Shown one piece after another: positions 13,806-57,145 of a stretch of DNA of 64,000 bases. The stretch lies in IMG/VR virus record IMGVR_UViG_3300010938_000951, positions 202,900 through 266,899 of that record; one strand, given 5' to 3'. Source of the stretch: a virus. Position 1 is the first letter of the stretch. Each line of letters starts with the position of its first letter. The translations under genes and the position numbers were made by a program. Below the pieces are notes generated by a model, which did not search any database, was not told the origin of the DNA, and was given only the letters and a program-made list of their open reading frames with translations.

Positions 13806-14825
13806 ATGCAATTACCTAATCGTTTATCTCAGTTGTTACAGAAACAAACTGATAGATTATTAAAAGACCTATTGTCTGAGAATCCTGATGTTCTTAAGAG
13901 TTATGTTAATGGTGGTCTTGCTGCCGTCGGTGCAGTATTAGCGCCAATTAATGTGTTTATGAGGCATTTATTAACAGTTCAGGGACTAGATCCTGATGCT
14001 GTGCCAGGAGAGAAACAAAGGGCATTGATACGGGCAGCTTTCAATAGTACATTTGAAAATAATCACGAAAAAGATTATGATGATGATTATGATGTTTCTT
14101 GGGTTCATAAAAAGTATAATTCTATAAAAGACAAATTCAATGTCACAGAAGATAAGTTTATGGCCCTAACTGATTTGTCAAAATTAGATAATGCCCCTCC
14201 AGTTTTGACAAAAGTAAAATTTGATGAGCTGGTTCAAGATATTAATCCAGTAGCTCCCGAGTCTGAGAAGCGCGAATTGCCTTTAGTTAAAACATATATG
14301 CAAGATGAAATTCAGGCGCTTAAAGAATTTGTGGAGACTATGGATAAACACAGCCAAAAGGCTGGAATTAAAACATCTACTAAAAAAGCCAATAAGGGTA
14401 AGAGGCCAGGCGCTAGAGTTCGTAGGGTAACCAGCTCTACAACCATCAAAGATGAACCAACAACATTAGAAGTGAAGTCTGATCGTGTTGTGCGACCATC
14501 ATCTAAGAAATTGCCAGCTCGTAATTTGAAAGATTTAACCGCACAAAAGAAAGAGAAAGTTAAAGCTATTAAAGAAGCAACCCCTGAATTTCAAGCAGAA
14601 TTAAAAGCAAAATTAGCAAAAGCAACAGAACTAACTAGTCTTATGATAGAAAAGGGACTTTGCAGAGCAGATGATCAATCTCGTAAAGATCAAATTGAAT
14701 CAATGTTGTCTTGGACAGATAATAATTTTGATGCACTAGAAAGAGTAATTAACAAATATTCTCCTACTAAAGATGCAGTGGCTGAGAATAAATTCAAGGG
14801 CTCTTTTAGAAGAGTTCAGAAATAA
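13806..14825 (+). CDS. Hypothetical protein sharing a C-terminal domain with the scaffold polyprotein
   Basis: This 339-residue protein has a hydrophobic stretch near residues 33-50, an acidic middle and a basic Lys/Arg-rich linker (about 190-260). The C-terminal 60 residues, including ELTSLMIEKGLCRAD and a following helix, match the end of the 1231-residue protease-scaffold protein at 42252 (ELTYDMVDRGLCRHD), so the two share a domain. It ends in SFRRVQK, similar to the tail of the next gene. It starts two bases after the preceding stop. The shared domain suggests a virion or assembly function despite its position among replication genes. Confidence 0.7.
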   Translation: MQLPNRLSQLLQKQTDRLLKDLLSENPDVLKSYVNGGLAAVGAVLAPINVFMRHLLTVQGLDPDAVPGEKQRALIRAAFNSTFENNHEKDYDDDYDVSWVHKKYNSIKDKFNVTEDKFMALTDLSKLDNAPPVLTKVKFDELVQDINPVAPESEKRELPLVKTYMQDEIQALKEFVETMDKHSQKAGIKTSTKKANKGKRPGARVRRVTSSTTIKDEPTTLEVKSDRVVRPSSKKLPARNLKDLTAQKKEKVKAIKEATPEFQAELKAKLAKATELTSLMIEKGLCRADDQSRKDQIESMLSWTDNNFDALERVINKYSPTKDAVAENKFKGSFRRVQK

Positions 14826-29383: not shown

Positions 29384-30154
29384 ATGAAACTCCGTGAACT
29401 GCTTCAAGAAATGAAGAGAGTCCAGGTAAATATAGGCGCATCTACGCCGTATATTTGCGGAGGTACGCCCAGAGATAAATACATGGGCAAATTAGAAAAT
29501 ATTGCAGACATAGATATGACTACTGGAGATAAAACTGTAGACTATCTATCTCAAGAATTTTATTTAACATTACGTAAAAGGTATAACGTTACTAGAAAAA
29601 CTATGGATGATGGACATAGTACGATTTTCATTGGCAGTTTGAAAATTGATTTCTCTTCAAATTTTATTGTACCAAATATTGATCAAGAGCTGGCAAAATT
29701 AGGAATTACTAAACCAACAGATATGCAACGCGAAATGTTTAGTCGTGATTTTACTTGCAACTCATTATTGCTTACTACAGATTTAAAACAAGTTTTAGAC
29801 CCAACCAAAAGAGGATTCAAAGATATTAAAGATAAGAAAATACGTACTTGTTTATCACCAGAAATTACATTAACATCTAATAGAAATAGGGTGGTAAGGG
29901 CTATTTATTTAGCTTGTAAATTGGATTTCGATATAGACGATTCAATTATAGATTTTGTGCGCCAACATCCAGATTCTGTAAAAATCTCAACTGAGAAATC
30001 TATGAATGATAAGTTGAATGAAGCGTTCTCTAGAAATCCAGAGAAGGCTGCAGCACTTATTACACAAATGAATCTCTGGAGCTATATTCCAATTACAGAA
30101 AAAGTTTATCCATATTATATAAAACAAATTAAAGGTAAAACTAATGTCGGTTAA
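29384..30154 (+). CDS. Nucleotidyltransferase of the CCA/poly(A) polymerase class II family, head domain only
   Basis: This 256-residue protein carries the NTP-transferase signature: GGTPRD (26-31), an AD-I-D metal-binding pair (D42, D44), then SRDFTCNSLL and LDPT-G-KDIKDKKIRTC, matching the RDFTINAL and DP-G-DL-...-IRT motifs of poly(A) polymerase/CCA enzymes. Only the catalytic head and a short neck are present; the tRNA-binding body and tail are missing. It would add nucleotides to an RNA or act on another substrate. A second, full-length member is encoded on the other strand at 57208-58443. AAGGAGAT lies before the ATG. Confidence 0.82.
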   Translation: MKLRELLQEMKRVQVNIGASTPYICGGTPRDKYMGKLENIADIDMTTGDKTVDYLSQEFYLTLRKRYNVTRKTMDDGHSTIFIGSLKIDFSSNFIVPNIDQELAKLGITKPTDMQREMFSRDFTCNSLLLTTDLKQVLDPTKRGFKDIKDKKIRTCLSPEITLTSNRNRVVRAIYLACKLDFDIDDSIIDFVRQHPDSVKISTEKSMNDKLNEAFSRNPEKAAALITQMNLWSYIPITEKVYPYYIKQIKGKTNVG

Positions 30155-30896
30155 TAAGCAAGCCTATTTTCAGGGTGGTGGCGGTGTAAATGAGCCAAAA
30201 CCAAAGAAGAAGAAATATAAATCTGATCCTGCTATTGTAGTTCAGCCAAGGTTCAAAGAGCCGTTTTATCGCAATTACGATTTATACAATGTTCCGGGCG
30301 AGCACGGCCCAGGCGCCGGTTGGCACGACATGAAAAAGTATAAATCGGTTTCAGAATTTCTAAAAGCCAAAAGAAAGAAGCTGAAGGACAAGTACAAAGC
30401 CGACGACTCTTGGATTTTGGATGATAATTCAAAAACGAAGAAAAATCCAAATATTGAAGCTCGTGCCGCCGTTTTTGAGGAAATTATTAAAAACGCTATC
30501 GATTTTCCAATTGATGATCAGATTGATGAGGGGTTGGGCGGACCATTTGAGACAGATACTGTTAATGATAATCCAGTAGGATATGCTAATTTAACAGGCG
30601 GAAAATTAGATGAATATTTGCCAAAAAATGATTTTGAAGGTAAATTACCAACTAATTTAGATTTTGGTAGGGACTATGTTGAGAGGCAAGAGCCTGGTCG
30701 TGGGCTATTAGATGATATTATTGAAAAACTTTTCAATAAGTATTTACCAGCATCGGAAACAGATTTATTTGGATTACCAGATGGTATTGAACCAAATTCT
30801 GATTTAGATGCAGAACAGACAATGGATGTAGAAGAGCCATTTACTGGAACATCCGATATTGGCACTGATATGTATAAGGATAATTGGATCGTCTAA
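30144..30896 (+). CDS. Virion-associated protein with KQAYFQGGGGVNEP N-terminus
   Basis: This 250-residue protein overlaps the upstream gene by 11 bases. Its N-terminus (NKQAYFQGGGGVNEP after MSV) is nearly identical to two internal segments of the protease-scaffold protein at 42252, one of which follows a probable internal start. A basic linker and an acidic Asp/Glu/Gly-rich C-terminal half follow, which looks flexible. The shared leader indicates a common destination, most likely the prohead interior or scaffold; this is inference. No enzyme motif was seen. Confidence 0.72.
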   Translation: MSVNKQAYFQGGGGVNEPKPKKKKYKSDPAIVVQPRFKEPFYRNYDLYNVPGEHGPGAGWHDMKKYKSVSEFLKAKRKKLKDKYKADDSWILDDNSKTKKNPNIEARAAVFEEIIKNAIDFPIDDQIDEGLGGPFETDTVNDNPVGYANLTGGKLDEYLPKNDFEGKLPTNLDFGRDYVERQEPGRGLLDDIIEKLFNKYLPASETDLFGLPDGIEPNSDLDAEQTMDVEEPFTGTSDIGTDMYKDNWIV

Positions 30897-35169: not shown

Positions 35170-37044
35170 ATGGCTGGTATTAAAAAATCGGGATTAGGAG
35201 ATCATCCGTCCTTTTCAGCAAAGTTCTTACAGGGCAGATCCACCACCCCTCAAGTAAGTGCTATTATGGCTCAGGGTGTTTCTGGAGAAAGAAGAGTTAT
35301 TCTTTCAGACGAAGTAGACCAAGGATATTTTAGAGACGGTTCTGGGCCAAGTTTAAATAAAATGGCACTAAATTCTCCCACAAGTGCTTCAAATGTAGTC
35401 TCTTCAGTGGGTTTCAAGAAAAATGCTCAAGTAGTTTCTTCAGTTGGAGGAATGTTTCGTGGTATTCATGGAGATTCCGTTAAGCAAACTCCTGAAGTAT
35501 ATTCCCCTCTTTGGCTTAATAGTAATCTAAACCTTCCCAGGGACCGTGCAACAATCAATGCATGGTGTCGTAGCTTTTTTGCTTTAAATCCATTTGTACA
35601 CAATGCTATTAGTTTACATAGCACTTATCCTATTAGCAAGCTTTCTATTAAATGTCCAAACAAAGATATTGAAAAATTCTTTGATGATATGATTGAAGAA
35701 ATTGATTTAATGAATATTTGCGTACAAATTGCCCAAGAATATTGGCTTTTAGGAGAAGCATTTGTTTATGCAGAATTAGATGAAGGTAAAGGCAAGTGGA
35801 GTCGCCTACACATTCAGAATCCAGATTTTATGCTTGTCAAACGTACGGTTGTAGCAAGCGAACCAATCATCATGCTTCGTCCTGATGAAAACCTCAAAAA
35901 AATTATTTTCTCAAATCGTCCAACTGATATTGAACAACGTAAACAATTAAATCAACACATCATTGATTCTGTTAGACGTGGTGAAAATATTCCACTAGAC
36001 AATTTCCACGTATCACATTTGGCTCGTCGTATTAGTCCATACGAAATCAGAGGCACAGGATTACCTGTTTGTATTTTCCGTCAGTTAATGTTATTCGACA
36101 AATTGCGTGAATCTAAATATGCACAGTCTGATAATATGATCAATCCATTGACTTTGGTTAAGATTGGTTCGGCTGATTATAAGCCAACTTTTGCTGACCT
36201 AGAAGCTTGGAGAAGTGTATTTGAAGAAGCGCAGTACGATAAAGACTTTAAGATATTTACCCATGAAGGAGTAGCGGTTGAAAGAGTAGGTTGGGGACAG
36301 GGAATCTATGATATCTCTGGAGATATTACTCAGCTACTTAAAGAAATTTTTATTGGGTTATTCGTACCACCTGTTATGATGGATGGTGGCGATACTACCA
36401 CTTATGCTAATGCTGGTGTAGCTTTGGACGTTCTTCGTCAGAGGTACATGCAGTTCCGTAACATGATGTCCATTTGGTTAAAGAATAAGATTTTTGCTCC
36501 AATCTCCAAAATTCAAGGGTTTTATGACTACTCTGGTGGAGAGAAACAACTTATTGTTCCTGAAATTGATTGGAATCACATGTCATTATTTGATGCTGGA
36601 GATTATATCAATAGTTTAATGACATTATCTCAAGGACAAGCGGATCAAAAGAGAGTATCTATTCATACTCTTTATCGTTCATTGGGTCTTGAGTACGAAG
36701 ATGAAGTACGTAAAATGCGTAAAGAAAATATTCAAAATGCAATTGCTAAGAAAGAAATTGCCGCGTTAGATCAAATGGATCTAAATGCTCTTCGTGCTTT
36801 GGATGATGAGGATGAAATTCCAGAACCAAAACAACCGGGTGCTGGACAAGAACAACCAGTACCAGGAGAGATGCCAGGAGGAGCACCGGGTGGATTACCA
36901 GATTTGGGTCTACCAGGCGGTGGCCCTCCACCACCTCCACCACCAGGTGGCGGTGGACCTCCACCACCACCTCCTCCGCCACCAGAAGGCGGTCCACCAG
37001 GCGGTGGACCTCCAGCAGGCGGAGCACCTCCACCAGCTCCATAA
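35170..37044 (+). CDS. Portal protein with Pro/Gly-rich tail
   Basis: This 624-residue protein has a portal-like central region (about 110-520): FFALNPFVHNAISLHSTY near the start, GEAFVYAELD, ISPYEIRGTGLPVCIFRQLM, and the Q-rich EIFIGLFVPPVMMDGGDTTTYANAGVAL segment characteristic of phage portals. It forms the dodecameric gate for terminase. The last 70 residues are almost only Pro and Gly, an unusual low-complexity tail also seen in neighbours. It follows the terminase as expected. The upstream gap (35093-35169) holds an AT-rich CATATTTTG element and an AGAGGT site. Confidence 0.9.
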   Translation: MAGIKKSGLGDHPSFSAKFLQGRSTTPQVSAIMAQGVSGERRVILSDEVDQGYFRDGSGPSLNKMALNSPTSASNVVSSVGFKKNAQVVSSVGGMFRGIHGDSVKQTPEVYSPLWLNSNLNLPRDRATINAWCRSFFALNPFVHNAISLHSTYPISKLSIKCPNKDIEKFFDDMIEEIDLMNICVQIAQEYWLLGEAFVYAELDEGKGKWSRLHIQNPDFMLVKRTVVASEPIIMLRPDENLKKIIFSNRPTDIEQRKQLNQHIIDSVRRGENIPLDNFHVSHLARRISPYEIRGTGLPVCIFRQLMLFDKLRESKYAQSDNMINPLTLVKIGSADYKPTFADLEAWRSVFEEAQYDKDFKIFTHEGVAVERVGWGQGIYDISGDITQLLKEIFIGLFVPPVMMDGGDTTTYANAGVALDVLRQRYMQFRNMMSIWLKNKIFAPISKIQGFYDYSGGEKQLIVPEIDWNHMSLFDAGDYINSLMTLSQGQADQKRVSIHTLYRSLGLEYEDEVRKMRKENIQNAIAKKEIAALDQMDLNALRALDDEDEIPEPKQPGAGQEQPVPGEMPGGAPGGLPDLGLPGGGPPPPPPPGGGGPPPPPPPPPEGGPPGGGPPAGGAPPPAP

Positions 37045-42251: not shown

Positions 42252-45200
42252 ATGACCATTATTAAATTAGGCGAAGCTCACGAGATTAAATTGGAAAGCA
42301 TGGAATCATGTCTTCCAGAATTGAGTGCTGATGTCTTAGAGAACTTTAGGAAATTTGCTGCTAATCTAAAGAAGATTGCACCTAAAGCAGAAGACTTTCT
42401 TTATTTTTCTGCTGTCATGATGCATGCCGCAGAAGCATCTGCATTAAACGAAGATGGTACACCAAAATTAACACTTAAAGGTGAGCCAGTACAAGTTGGA
42501 TGGGATACTAGCGGAGGCACATGGAAGTGGATTAGCAATGATCCAAGTATTCGACCATATAAAAATTCTAATGGCGATATATTTCCAGAAGCCGAATTAA
42601 CCAAAGCTTATAAAAAATGGAAGCACAAGCCTCTTTGCGTGGATCATAAATCAAGTTCAGTAGACCACGTTAGAGGCTTTATTGTTGATACTTATTATGA
42701 TCGCAATCTCAAGAGAGTAATTGCATTATGTGCCTTAGATAAGGCCGGATTCCCTCAATTAGCCAGACAAGTAGCTACTGGCGTTTCAACTTGCGTATCA
42801 ATGGGTACAGCAGTTGGTAGGGCAATTTGCTACGATTGTGGTAGAGTCGCTCGTGCAGAGCAGGACTTCTGCAATCATATGAAAAACAAGACTTGCTACG
42901 GCGAAATCAACGTAGACCTTAATCCAATTGAGTTGTCTATCGTTGTAAATGGTGCTGATCCTAGAGCCAACATCAAAAACATCATCGCCGCAGCTAACAC
43001 CATGAATACGTACCTTGAAAATCGTGCTAAGGAACTAGAAAAACTTGCCGATCTCAAGTTTCATGCTACTATTGGTGTAGATGACCCACAAGGTCATGAG
43101 GGTGGCGGTTCTGCAACTTTCAATGTTCAAGCAAATGACATTGACAAGTTCAAAACTGATTTAGATGAAGCATTTAGGAAAGTTCAAGAGTTTAAAAACG
43201 TAAAAATTTCTGAACTAGATACTAATTCTTCAGCATCTAATCAATCGTCGGGTTCGATTGCCATGGATGAAGGCGCACCCACGGATTCTGGATTGGCTCT
43301 CCAAACTCCGCAAACTAACAGGTTTGCATCCGCAGATGTAGAGGCGGAATCATTGGCTGAGCTTCAGCAAGTTACTGCATCAATTGAAGCAACGTTAAGT
43401 CAAATGAAAAAGAGCTTGGATAAGTTAGCTAAAACTACTTCTACAAAAACACAAGAGGAAAATATGTCTGGATCAAAAGAAATTAATAAGCAAGCTTATT
43501 TCCAGGGCGGCGGTGGCGTAAATGAGCCAACTCCAGGTCAAGTTAAGTATCCAAAAGACGGACTCAATGAGCAGCTTCGTGAGAACGAGGATAAGCACAT
43601 GGTGGGTCAGCCTCCTTTCCCTGAGGTAGGTCCAGTCGATGGTATGCACCCTTCACCAGCTTCGGCTGATCCTTCTGGGGAGTTAGAGCGTAAGAAGATG
43701 CTCGCTCGTGCAGAAGCAGAAGAGCGTGCTCTTAAGCGTAATGCCATTGTAAATATGGTTAAGGATACACTAAAGAACAAAGAAGCCTACTGGCAAGGTG
43801 GTGGCGGTGTTAACGAGCCAACTCCAGGTAAGGCAAAGTATCCAAAGGATAAACTAAACGAAGAACTTCGTGATTACGAAGATAAGCAGATGGTTGGTCA
43901 ACCACCATTCCCTGGCGTTGGTCCAGTTGATGGTTTGCATCCATCTCCATCTTCAGCAGATCCAAAAGACGAATTAAAGCGCAAGCAAATGCTCGCACGC
44001 GCACAACTACGTGCAAGATTCGTTAAGGCTGCAAATAATGATGGAACTCAAAACAAAGCAAAGAGCGCTTGGGAAGTATTCCTAGGTGATAAGCTATTGT
44101 TAACTGCTTCTGTTGATGAACTATCCGGAGGCAATACTGCAGTTCTATATGATTCAATTGCAACCAAAGAATTTGGTACTAAGTTAATTGAAAAAGTTAA
44201 GGTACAAGGCGCTGATGCTGTATCTAAACTAATCAAGAAGGCACAAGGCGCTCCTCCAGCTCCTCCTCCAGGTGACCCATCTAGCGCAGCTCCTCCAGCC
44301 GATCCAGGCGCAGGCGCTCCAGATGCTGGTCCTCCAGCAGAAGATACGGGTGGTTCTGGCGATCCAAAGCAAACTGCCGTCGAACTTTCTGAAAAAGTAA
44401 GAGACCTAAGCTCTGATCTAGTCGAAGCTGTTCGTGCTTTAACTGGCGAACAAGCTGAGATGGGTGGTCCAGAAGCTGGTGGTGTTGGTGGTCCTGCTGG
44501 TGGTCCAATGGCCGCTGATGACCAAGATGCTCGTAAGAAGAAGGATGACAAAGAATCTACCGCTTCTGATAGCTTCAGTGCTAATACTCTTAACACTTTA
44601 AGAAAAGAACTTAATGGCGCACTAACTCATGCCATGAAAGAATCTATTGCGGAACTTGCTGAGCACAAGCAAGAACTAGATATGATTGCTGGTATGTATG
44701 ACAAGGGTGCTGTAACTCCATCTAACCAGGAGTTTGTGGGTACTATCGTAGAAGATGCATTAAATGAAGCTAAAACTGCCGTAGCAGATGGTTTCAAACT
44801 AATGACAGCTTTTGTTAAGTATGCTCGTGGTACTAAGGCCATTGTCAAGCGTGCTGAAATTGAATCAGAATTGCAAGCACTAGCCGAAGGAGATACCGAA
44901 ATGAGCGACAAAGAAGATAGTCACTCCGCAGACGGCGGTGACTTGATGGGACTAATTAACGACACCAATGCAGATTTGGATGCCGTTCAAGAGATGATGG
45001 GTGATGACCAAAGCCACGAAGGCAGTTTAGATGAACTTCTAGACGAACCAGTAGGCGAAGAATCACTAGGAGGTCTTGAAGGAGAGGATCTACTAACAGG
45101 TTTGGCTGACGATAACGACCTTACTTTCGAACAAGGTGAGAAAGTTCCACCAGAGTTGGCCGGAAAGAAGTTAACTATGGCATCTTATGATGATAGAGCT

Positions 45201-45947
45201 GGTCGTGCAGCCCTCAGAGCCAAGTTGGCCGCTGATGCTCTCGGCAAGGAAGAGGATGGAGAAGTCCAAGATATGTCTAAACAAAAGTTTAGTGATATGT
45301 TAGACGCTTCTCAGAAGCACACTGATGGTCAAACTGAGTTGGATGTTAAACCATCTGATAGTCTTGGATTAGTTGAAACTGTTCAAGAAGTAAACAAGGC
45401 CATGATGGATGTTGCTAAGGCTCCACCAAAGGTTCGTAAAGAAGCAGAAGTTATTCAGAGACTTGTTTCTGAAGGTAAGCTTGATCCAAAGGACGTAGAT
45501 GCTCTAGCATCCTACGGATTAGATGGCGAAGCAGTTGCTTACTGGAAGAAGTATTATGGTGAAGTTGATGGCGGAAGTGAATTTGCTAGTGAATTGGTAA
45601 AGGAACACGTCAAGTCAGCAATGGAAGAAGAGCTTAACAAGTTCCGCGTCAAGTTAGCTCGCGCATACGAACTTACCTATGACATGGTTGATCGTGGACT
45701 ATGCCGTCATGACAGAGCAACTATCTCTGATCAAGTTGACCAAATTATGAAGTTTAATGATGATGCATTCGAATCTCTAAAGAAGGTTGTTGCCCGTCAT
45801 GAACCAGGTGCCCTCCGCAAGGCAGCAGGTACCATTCCACAAGTTGGTCTTAGAGTTGATGGAGAATTCTCTCCAGCTCAAGCAGTAGAGGATGACTCTT
45901 ACGCCCAGTTGTCAGCCCTCTTTGGTAACAAAAAGGGTGTGTTCTAA
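42252..45947 (+). CDS. Prohead protease-scaffold fusion protein
   Basis: The protein has 1231 residues. Residues 110-240 look like a phage prohead protease: histidines in VDHKSSSVDH (H132, H139), GFIVDTYYD, then an ARQVATGVSTCVSMG segment with serines S179 and S183 as candidate nucleophiles, followed by a Cys cluster (C193, C196, C207, C215) that may bind zinc. From about 400 on it is scaffold-like: two 80-residue repeats (413-493, 510-590), Gly/Pro/Ala and acidic linkers, and long helices. The last 70 residues share a GLCR domain with the protein at 13806. It resembles the lambda C/Nu3 plan, where a protease and a nested scaffold share one frame. Confidence 0.75.
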   Translation: MTIIKLGEAHEIKLESMESCLPELSADVLENFRKFAANLKKIAPKAEDFLYFSAVMMHAAEASALNEDGTPKLTLKGEPVQVGWDTSGGTWKWISNDPSIRPYKNSNGDIFPEAELTKAYKKWKHKPLCVDHKSSSVDHVRGFIVDTYYDRNLKRVIALCALDKAGFPQLARQVATGVSTCVSMGTAVGRAICYDCGRVARAEQDFCNHMKNKTCYGEINVDLNPIELSIVVNGADPRANIKNIIAAANTMNTYLENRAKELEKLADLKFHATIGVDDPQGHEGGGSATFNVQANDIDKFKTDLDEAFRKVQEFKNVKISELDTNSSASNQSSGSIAMDEGAPTDSGLALQTPQTNRFASADVEAESLAELQQVTASIEATLSQMKKSLDKLAKTTSTKTQEENMSGSKEINKQAYFQGGGGVNEPTPGQVKYPKDGLNEQLRENEDKHMVGQPPFPEVGPVDGMHPSPASADPSGELERKKMLARAEAEERALKRNAIVNMVKDTLKNKEAYWQGGGGVNEPTPGKAKYPKDKLNEELRDYEDKQMVGQPPFPGVGPVDGLHPSPSSADPKDELKRKQMLARAQLRARFVKAANNDGTQNKAKSAWEVFLGDKLLLTASVDELSGGNTAVLYDSIATKEFGTKLIEKVKVQGADAVSKLIKKAQGAPPAPPPGDPSSAAPPADPGAGAPDAGPPAEDTGGSGDPKQTAVELSEKVRDLSSDLVEAVRALTGEQAEMGGPEAGGVGGPAGGPMAADDQDARKKKDDKESTASDSFSANTLNTLRKELNGALTHAMKESIAELAEHKQELDMIAGMYDKGAVTPSNQEFVGTIVEDALNEAKTAVADGFKLMTAFVKYARGTKAIVKRAEIESELQALAEGDTEMSDKEDSHSADGGDLMGLINDTNADLDAVQEMMGDDQSHEGSLDELLDEPVGEESLGGLEGEDLLTGLADDNDLTFEQGEKVPPELAGKKLTMASYDDRAGRAALRAKLAADALGKEEDGEVQDMSKQKFSDMLDASQKHTDGQTELDVKPSDSLGLVETVQEVNKAMMDVAKAPPKVRKEAEVIQRLVSEGKLDPKDVDALASYGLDGEAVAYWKKYYGEVDGGSEFASELVKEHVKSAMEEELNKFRVKLARAYELTYDMVDRGLCRHDRATISDQVDQIMKFNDDAFESLKKVVARHEPGALRKAAGTIPQVGLRVDGEFSPAQAVEDDSYAQLSALFGNKKGVF
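43464..45947 (+). CDS. Nested in-frame scaffold protein (internal start)
   Basis: Inside the protease-scaffold gene, AGAGGAAAAT precedes an in-frame ATG at 43464, giving a product of 827 residues beginning MSGSKEINKQAYFQGGGG. The same leader, MSVNKQAYFQGGGG, forms the true N-terminus of the separate gene at 30144, which strongly supports this as a real start. The product would be the scaffold alone, made in excess over the protease fusion, as with lambda Nu3. It is seen from sequence; expression is not shown. Confidence 0.55.
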   Translation: MSGSKEINKQAYFQGGGGVNEPTPGQVKYPKDGLNEQLRENEDKHMVGQPPFPEVGPVDGMHPSPASADPSGELERKKMLARAEAEERALKRNAIVNMVKDTLKNKEAYWQGGGGVNEPTPGKAKYPKDKLNEELRDYEDKQMVGQPPFPGVGPVDGLHPSPSSADPKDELKRKQMLARAQLRARFVKAANNDGTQNKAKSAWEVFLGDKLLLTASVDELSGGNTAVLYDSIATKEFGTKLIEKVKVQGADAVSKLIKKAQGAPPAPPPGDPSSAAPPADPGAGAPDAGPPAEDTGGSGDPKQTAVELSEKVRDLSSDLVEAVRALTGEQAEMGGPEAGGVGGPAGGPMAADDQDARKKKDDKESTASDSFSANTLNTLRKELNGALTHAMKESIAELAEHKQELDMIAGMYDKGAVTPSNQEFVGTIVEDALNEAKTAVADGFKLMTAFVKYARGTKAIVKRAEIESELQALAEGDTEMSDKEDSHSADGGDLMGLINDTNADLDAVQEMMGDDQSHEGSLDELLDEPVGEESLGGLEGEDLLTGLADDNDLTFEQGEKVPPELAGKKLTMASYDDRAGRAALRAKLAADALGKEEDGEVQDMSKQKFSDMLDASQKHTDGQTELDVKPSDSLGLVETVQEVNKAMMDVAKAPPKVRKEAEVIQRLVSEGKLDPKDVDALASYGLDGEAVAYWKKYYGEVDGGSEFASELVKEHVKSAMEEELNKFRVKLARAYELTYDMVDRGLCRHDRATISDQVDQIMKFNDDAFESLKKVVARHEPGALRKAAGTIPQVGLRVDGEFSPAQAVEDDSYAQLSALFGNKKGVF
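43488..44028 (+). repeat. Two 80-residue coding repeats with KxAY(F/W)QGGGGVNEP leader
   Basis: Residues 413-493 and 510-590 of the protease-scaffold protein align almost continuously: QGGGGVNEPTPG, KYPKD, LNE-LR, EDK-MVGQPPFP, VGPVDG-HPSP, SADP and RK-MLARA. DNA copies differ mostly at third positions, so the repeat is old and under protein-level selection. Confidence 0.85.
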
Positions 45948-46674: not shown

Positions 46675-47160
46675 ATGTTCAAACAAGGCAGCTTTGAGGA
46701 CGAACTCTATCGTTCGATGGAGAAGACTTTAGTCAAAAACCAAACCGAAAATAGACACGGATTCAATAAGCTAGCCAAAGCTACTGATCTTTTGAATACT
46801 GCGGCCGATATTTTCGACCGTGCAGGCATGCGCAAAGAATCAGAAGAAGTTACAAAAGTCTTGCGATCAGTTGCTATTGATCAATTGATCAGCGAGGCTT
46901 TTTCTTTGTCTGATTTAATGAGTAAAATCGATGTTTTAGGCATCAATGAGCATGATTTGCATAATATGTTAGAAATGTCTACGCCAGCTCAATTGATTAC
47001 TTTGGCAAAGAAAATTGCTAGTGTTCTTAAAGGAGATAGCTCTCTATCCGAAGAGGCAGAGAAGTTAGCTAAAGAACATGATATTACTGATCCAGAAGTT
47101 AAAGATAAGTTGGTTGATAGAATCATGACCGCACTAAAGGTCGCTAAGTTTTTTGTATAA
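46675..47160 (+). CDS. Helical head-region protein, paralogue of the next gene
   Basis: This 161-residue protein has CAGAGG before the ATG. Its N-terminal 65 residues (SFEDELYRSMEKTL, then a KLAKATDLLNTAADIFDRAGM helix pair) align with those of the next gene (LFEDELIAGMEKQL and KAAECLHAALEIFEEQGM), so the two arose by duplication. The rest is helical and charged. Unknown function; probably a virion core protein. Confidence 0.7.
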   Translation: MFKQGSFEDELYRSMEKTLVKNQTENRHGFNKLAKATDLLNTAADIFDRAGMRKESEEVTKVLRSVAIDQLISEAFSLSDLMSKIDVLGINEHDLHNMLEMSTPAQLITLAKKIASVLKGDSSLSEEAEKLAKEHDITDPEVKDKLVDRIMTALKVAKFFV

Positions 47161-56131: not shown

Positions 56132-57145
56132 ATGAATATGTTTAGTGGTAAAGGCGAAATTAACGCCTCATCTTTCAAAGATGCATTGCAGGCATTGGTA
56201 AAGTATGCAGCCATTCTCGAAGAGAATGTTCCTGCCAACCAAGGTCTCGCCGGCCAACCAGCATTGAGCGATGAGAAGCGCGATGAGTTGATCACTCGTG
56301 CTATCATGACTCAGGACGGAAAGATTGCTCTTGCTCAGGCAATGGCAAACCCAATCCGTAGAAACTTAGATTACCACGGCATTGCCCGTCGTGCTCTAGT
56401 AGTTGATCCACTACCACAGGGAGCAATCCCAACCTACGACCGTGATATTGACGTAGCTGCTGTTGTTATTTCTAGCAACGGTACTGGTCCAGAATCCCGT
56501 GTCTTCGGTGACCGTGTAGTAGTTCCTGAGTTTGAAATCTACGCCAACCCAACGGTTCGTATCGCTGAGGTAAAGCGTCGTAGATTCAACGTCATTGACA
56601 GAGCAGTTCAGAAGGCTCGCCAAGAAATCATGGCCCAGGAAGATGCAAACATCTTCGCAGCTCTTGATGCGGCAGCCTCCGTTGAGAACACTCTCACTGA
56701 CATCGCCGATGCAGGTTTGCTAAAGCGTGACTTAGTTGAAATTAAGCAACAGATTGACCGTTGGGACTTGGTAACCACCAAGTACTTTATGAACATCAAC
56801 GAGTTCACTGACATCCTCAAGTGGGGATCTGGTGGTGGACAAGGTGTTGGCGGAGGAGACTTCGATCCAGTAACCATGCGTGAAGTTCTACAAACTGGTC
56901 TATACGCCCACATCTGGGGCACTGACATTATGGTCAGCAAGATTGTTCCACCTGGAACCATCTACGGTGTAGCCGATCCTGAGTTCGTTGGTGTAATGCC
57001 AATCCGTCAGGACATCGAAGTTCTACCAGCAGACGAGCCAAAGCAATTGAAGCTCGGATGGGTAGTCTCTGAGATTATCGGTATCGCCATTGTAAATCCT
57101 CGCGGATGCGCAGCAGGCAGAAAGAGCGTTGTTATCGGAGCCTAA
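56132..57145 (+). CDS. Major capsid protein (HK97-fold)
   Basis: The protein has 337 residues. The pattern is that of phage capsid proteins: a helical N-terminal arm, a PIRRNLDYHGIARRALVV segment, RVFGDRVVVPEFEIYANPTVRIAEVKRRRF (a typical E-loop to spine-helix run), a helix with KARQEIMAQEDANIFAALDAA, and a C-terminal beta P-domain end (GVMPIRQDIEVLPADEPKQL and IGIAIVNPRG). Codon use is strongly optimised. AGGAGA precedes the ATG. No long cleavable delta domain is obvious, in line with a separate scaffold. A terminator follows. Confidence 0.88.
   Translation: MNMFSGKGEINASSFKDALQALVKYAAILEENVPANQGLAGQPALSDEKRDELITRAIMTQDGKIALAQAMANPIRRNLDYHGIARRALVVDPLPQGAIPTYDRDIDVAAVVISSNGTGPESRVFGDRVVVPEFEIYANPTVRIAEVKRRRFNVIDRAVQKARQEIMAQEDANIFAALDAAASVENTLTDIADAGLLKRDLVEIKQQIDRWDLVTTKYFMNINEFTDILKWGSGGGQGVGGGDFDPVTMREVLQTGLYAHIWGTDIMVSKIVPPGTIYGVADPEFVGVMPIRQDIEVLPADEPKQLKLGWVVSEIIGIAIVNPRGCAAGRKSVVIGA

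Follow-up and report, generated by a model that had tools for sequence, protein, structure and literature searches.

We propose that a 1231-codon protease-scaffold gene of an uncultured giant phage very probably yields a set of 3'-coterminal, in-frame products from independent translation starts on one message. It is also likely that these comprise two nested starts and three products (1231, 827, and 348 amino acids) preceded by Shine-Dalgarno (SD) sites of graded strength, and that the arrangement is widespread in uncultured giant phages. In the proposed mechanism, a ribosome starting at position 42252 would make the full protease-scaffold fusion; loading at AGAGGA and the ATG at 43464 would give an 827-aa protein without the protease; and, here as in the majority of close relatives, a third ribosome at GAAGGAGA and the ATG at 44901 would give a 348-aa protein carrying only an acidic stretch and the C-terminal domain. 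If the gene behaves like lambda C/Nu3 and herpesvirus UL26/UL26.5, most of the prohead scaffold would consist of the short proteins, and the C-terminal part common to all products would bring protease, as a minor component, into the prohead, later to clear the scaffold ahead of DNA packaging. Actual translation, product ratios, scaffold function, incorporation, and cleavage are inferred. One nested start is of a known kind, whereas two in one phage gene, as predicted here, would be new. In a literature search restricted to open-access papers, no phage protease-scaffold gene was reported to have two nested starts, and a second such start is not known to us from any phage.

The protease-scaffold gene and its predicted products

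The window analyzed here, 64,000 nucleotides long, closes a virus record of 266,899 bases; the giant phage it comes from is a relative of Bacillus phage G. The protease-scaffold gene (42252..45947, + strand) was identified by its open reading frame, phrog_18299, and phage G gp19, and its own start is served by the SD GGGAG (-7.4 kcal/mol). It sits between the portal gene (35170..37044, +), a homologue of phage G gp14 (2e-76; PHROG portal), and the gene for the major capsid protein, or MCP (56132..57145, +), a homologue of phage G gp27 (7e-100; PHROG major head protein); approximately ten genes separate it from the latter. The MCP N-terminus (56132-56260) has approximately 45 residues more than gp27, possibly a cleaved propeptide. 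At their N-termini, genes at 46675, 47153, and 48828, 3' of the protease gene, have in common an F(E/D)D(E/S)...MEK-like sequence, which may serve as a head-targeting or cleaved leader.

The protease domain (approximately residues 27-254; 42330..43013, +) was delimited by alignment, an AlphaFold2 model (pLDDT 89), and fold matches in the PDB. This N-terminal part matches phrog_18299, a head maturation protease (1e-11), and phage G gp19 (3e-27, over the protease part only). His132 and Ser183 (VSMG motif) are invariant in the protease alignment and are candidate catalytic residues. When the AlphaFold2 model was compared blind with the PDB, the top matches were T4 gp21 and the herpesvirus assemblins, with a match probability of 0.94-0.96, TM scores of approximately 0.28-0.47, and E-values of approximately 7e-3, above 1e-3; a sequence search of the PDB with the protease profile returned no relevant match. 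Together, the PHROG assignment, gp19 homology, and borderline fold matches support the identification of this region as a head-maturation protease. Intein-like insertions, classed as Hint domains, occur inside the protease domain of two relatives at the same point (KNSN/C ... HN/CDIFPEE); they span residues ~121-497 in L150, which also has a LAGLIDADG domain, and ORF residues ~124-277 in L130 and L079.

A hypervariable linker (43014..43453, +), largely unalignable across the clade, leads from the protease to the first nested start. In a sliding-window scan of synonymous conservation, the top windows were linker residues 329-364 (~43236-43343), where codon conservation is unusually high among close relatives; this signal may be a bias, since only close relatives align there, or may mark another element.

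The nested parts had no match in PHROG or Pfam, including lambda Nu3 or other named scaffolds. Their C-terminal domain is shared with phage G gp21 over only ~60 residues (2e-6). The nested product is predicted to consist mostly of long helices and disordered linkers, and an AlphaFold model of the 827-aa product was of low confidence (58.6) and was not used for a fold search. Copies of the C-terminal domain recur in a separate 339-aa gene within the window (13806-14825; HMM 1e-16) and, weakly, at G000:C1:81523-81708. A scaffold role is suggested by gene position, gp21 homology, fusion to the protease, the helical and disordered prediction, and precedent. Alternatively, the nested proteins may be made but serve the head in another way than as assembly scaffold, either in its internal core or as ejected proteins. 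We regard this as unlikely, though as a reading to be taken seriously: giant phages such as SPN3US have many internal head proteins (PMC5694885), and the C-terminal domain recurs in the 13806-14825 gene, as does the N-terminal leader of the nested product at 30144, yet the location between portal and MCP and the fusion to a protease fit known protease-scaffold genes, and so does a predicted build that is helical and partly disordered.

Conservation of the predicted nested start at Met405

A first-pass annotation of this DNA drew attention to AGAGG ahead of an in-frame ATG inside the 1231-codon gene. The site is indeed present: AGAGGA (SD site 1; 43454..43459, +) is followed, after a 4-nt gap, by the ATG at 43464 (Met405), which opens the predicted first nested gene (43464..45947, +). 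Its 827-aa product, the presumed scaffold, starts MSGSKEINKQAYFQGGGG and is in part homologous to gp21. From the window sequence alone the evidence is weak, the SD of Met405 ranking fifth among the gene's 52 internal ATG/GTG/TTG codons; the comparative evidence is very strong. SDs are frequent on the phage's own genes, and they were scored here with a generic anti-SD, which may differ from the host's own. Ribosomal protein bS21 acts at the SD/anti-SD helix. The phage encodes a bS21 upstream of the window (G000:C1:196475-196633), and carriage of this protein by phages has been described (PMC9723584).

Relatives were gathered with three queries: the whole protein, the DNA pattern for AYFQGGG, and just the protease domain, the last giving a set that is unbiased as to the site. 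All distinct relatives reaching site 1 have an in-frame ATG with an SD match there (98/98; 97 by an automatic rule and L150 by hand). Within the first sets, SD and ATG were found in 56/56 distinct fused genes, with a weakest SD of -5.4 and a mean of -6.6 kcal/mol, and in the set gathered by the protease domain alone, site 1 occurs in every sequence long enough to include it. Several genes seemingly without the site because of a diverged first cassette (L053, L070, L076, L083, L097, L137, and L148) proved by hand to have it, and the same holds for L212, L213, L218, L168, and L172. Throughout the relatives, the site-1 ATG stands just 5' of the first leader cassette. The first-pass annotation had named loss of the SD and ATG among relatives as the outcome that would count against a nested start; the comparison gave the opposite, with both retained and their synonymous codons constrained.

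An SD as good as that of site 1 accompanies just 9% of the 1445 other in-frame ATGs inside these genes. The Glu-Glu pair at the SD is encoded GAG-GAA in 75/75 sequences, compared with 104/885 (12%) of Glu-Glu pairs elsewhere in the genes; among 251 columns with an invariant amino acid, six are also codon-invariant, and two of these six are the adjacent Glu pair of the SD. The linker immediately 5' cannot be aligned clade-wide, and 34 different tetrapeptides precede the Met. Divergent clades have other SD forms (AAGGA, GGAGG) encoded in different amino acids, and site 1 persists in relatives whose protease domains are down to 35% identical. The mRNA at Met405 is also predicted to be open, with a folding energy of -0.8 compared with a gene mean of -7.2 kcal/mol, leaving the start region near-unstructured.

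Taken one sequence at a time, synonymous resampling at site 1 did not reach significance on its own (median p 0.25), acidic residues being prone to yield SD-like DNA; codon invariance across relatives was therefore used in its place. A scan of the gene for sigma-70-like internal promoters found fewer sites than in shuffled sequences, with none that stands out. What carries the case for site 1 is its conservation in numerous genomes, although these share ancestry and are not independent; on this comparative footing, a nested start at Met405 is well supported.

A probable second nested start and the leader cassette

While the first-pass annotation was borne out on Met405, it overlooked a stronger candidate start further downstream at Met884. 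SD site 2, GAAGGAGA (44886..44893, +), has the strongest score in the gene (-8.8 kcal/mol), exceeding that of site 1, and precedes the ATG of the predicted second nested gene (44901..45947, +). The predicted 348-aa product would begin SDKEDSHSADGG and comprise an acidic stretch and the conserved C-terminal domain. In the alignment, the columns of codons 884 and 405 stand apart from every other Met column. Site 2, defined as an ATG preceded by an SD scoring -6.3 or better, was found in 50/55 relatives with >=75% protease identity and in 3.3% of control windows. It is missing from L142, L202, L203, L220, and most relatives with protease identity below 75%; it probably arose later than site 1, given its absence from a few near and most distant relatives.

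It is improbable that only Met405 is used and that the SD-like sequence before Met884 reflects a constraint on the protein. The clade restriction of site 2 and its absences would agree with such a constraint, but the Gly codon within the SD is GGA in 36/36 sequences, compared with 22% of Gly codons overall, and 0/46 other conserved Gly columns reach 95% codon invariance. L148 and L204, moreover, keep the SD in a different codon frame, where it encodes other residues, Thr-Glu-Thr. Selection at the codon level and conservation are well supported for both predicted internal starts. A third internal candidate, Met1008 (45273..45947, +), was rejected: the Gly codon of its SD is GGA in only 18/28 sequences, and the Met is replaced by Ala in several relatives.

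The translation and a motif scan place two tandem AYxQGGGGVNEPTPG...ELxRKxMLARA cassettes near the beginning of the first nested product (43485..44030, +), starting at ~43485 and ~43776, and the second copy has no ATG. A separate gene (30144..30896, +) carries the AYFQGGGGVNEP leader as its N-terminus; it begins MSVNKQAYFQGGGGVNEP, as the first-pass annotation had stated, and the pattern MSxNKQAYFQGGGG is common to this gene and the nested product. Within the window (29384-30896), the leader gene lies apart from a tRNA nucleotidyltransferase-like gene (PHROG), and in other phages the two are fused in-frame. These configurations provide a negative control. Separate leader genes have an SD in 12/13 cases, whereas leaders fused to the nucleotidyltransferase-like gene have one at -5.4 or better in 0/14, five of them also being without the ATG; therefore, the coding sequence of the leader does not itself create an SD. 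As a guess, the AYFQGGGGVNEPTP cassette, repeated here and also present in the 30144 protein, may be a head-targeting or cleavage signal.

Another conceivable source of the short forms is cleavage of the full-length protein close to the AYFQGGGG cassette, in which case the SD-like sequence would be a pause site or a coincidence. Prohead proteases do cut their own scaffold, and a repeated cassette might act as a signal for cleavage or targeting. Proteolysis, however, needs no Met, no SD at initiation spacing, no invariant synonymous codons, and no open mRNA, and we consider it very unlikely as the source of the short forms, although subsequent cleavage could still happen as well. Hardly credible is the idea that the internal SD-ATGs are disused relics of fused, once separate genes, as the still separate protease and scaffold-like protein of phage G and the leader at the N-terminus of the 30144 gene might suggest, since relics should decay but SD and ATG last across 35%-identical protease domains and unalignable linkers, and the fused genes of the 29384/30144 type have no SD.

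Comparison with known protease-scaffold systems

The doses of scaffold and protease decide prohead building, and head assembly in giant phages is poorly understood. If independent starts do produce the coterminal set, a large uncultured lineage of giant phages would use one gene to set how much protease it makes relative to long and short scaffold, and standard annotation would overlook one or two proteins per such genome.

Several long actinophage proteases (Alice gp90, Myrna gp97, Finch gp17, and RedWattleHog gp13) have a homologous N-terminal protease. The proteins are 989-1511 aa in length, with the major capsid gene lying two genes downstream, and their C-terminal parts differ in showing no detectable relation to the 42252 gene. 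Four actinophage genomes (L032, L033, L035, and L036) have a Met with an SD-like sequence a short way 5' of a common SRNDQ motif; this Met may be another nested start.

Lambda and P2 are described as having a single-gene protease-scaffold arrangement (PMC8508860), and in the Mu-like phage PaMx73 the SD ACGAGGA lies ahead of codon 177 (PMC4378225). The gene described here resembles lambda C/Nu3, P2 O, and those of Mu and Mu-like phages in its N-terminal protease, presumed C-terminal scaffold, and predicted internal in-frame start with an SD; it differs in that family libraries show no similarity to their scaffold sequences and in its repeated AYFQGGGG leader and predicted second nested start. 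Nu3 is also far shorter than the 827-aa nested product. The lambda-like strategy put forward in the first-pass annotation is supported for the predicted nested start after the protease (98/98; PHROG, gp19, gp21), whose product is a presumed scaffold; the 42252 gene would work like C/Nu3 by virtue of that start, with no homology to Nu3 found.

Phage G has a homologous portal (gp14), protease (gp19), and MCP (gp27), and the C-terminal domain is found in its gp21. There, however, gp19 is a separate 300-aa gene and the scaffold-like gp21 lies two genes on, whereas the two are fused and nested here. Phage G, as a relative in which the two genes are split, would make it possible to trace how protease and scaffold genes fused and separated.

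Finally, herpesvirus UL26/UL26.5 and cytomegalovirus UL80 encode a protease-linker-scaffold fusion and coterminal scaffold-only products (PMC12474303, PMC9732275); for cytomegalovirus, the title of Welch 1991, as cited in PMC9732275, refers to four 3'-coterminal in-frame products. The phage gene shares the order of protease, linker, and presumed scaffold, and its predicted protease fold has borderline matches to the assemblins. Herpesviruses achieve this through separate transcripts, whereas the phage gene has predicted internal SDs and no outstanding internal promoter. If both nested starts are used, giant phages would parallel the herpesvirus solution with a translational counterpart of the four-product UL80 family.
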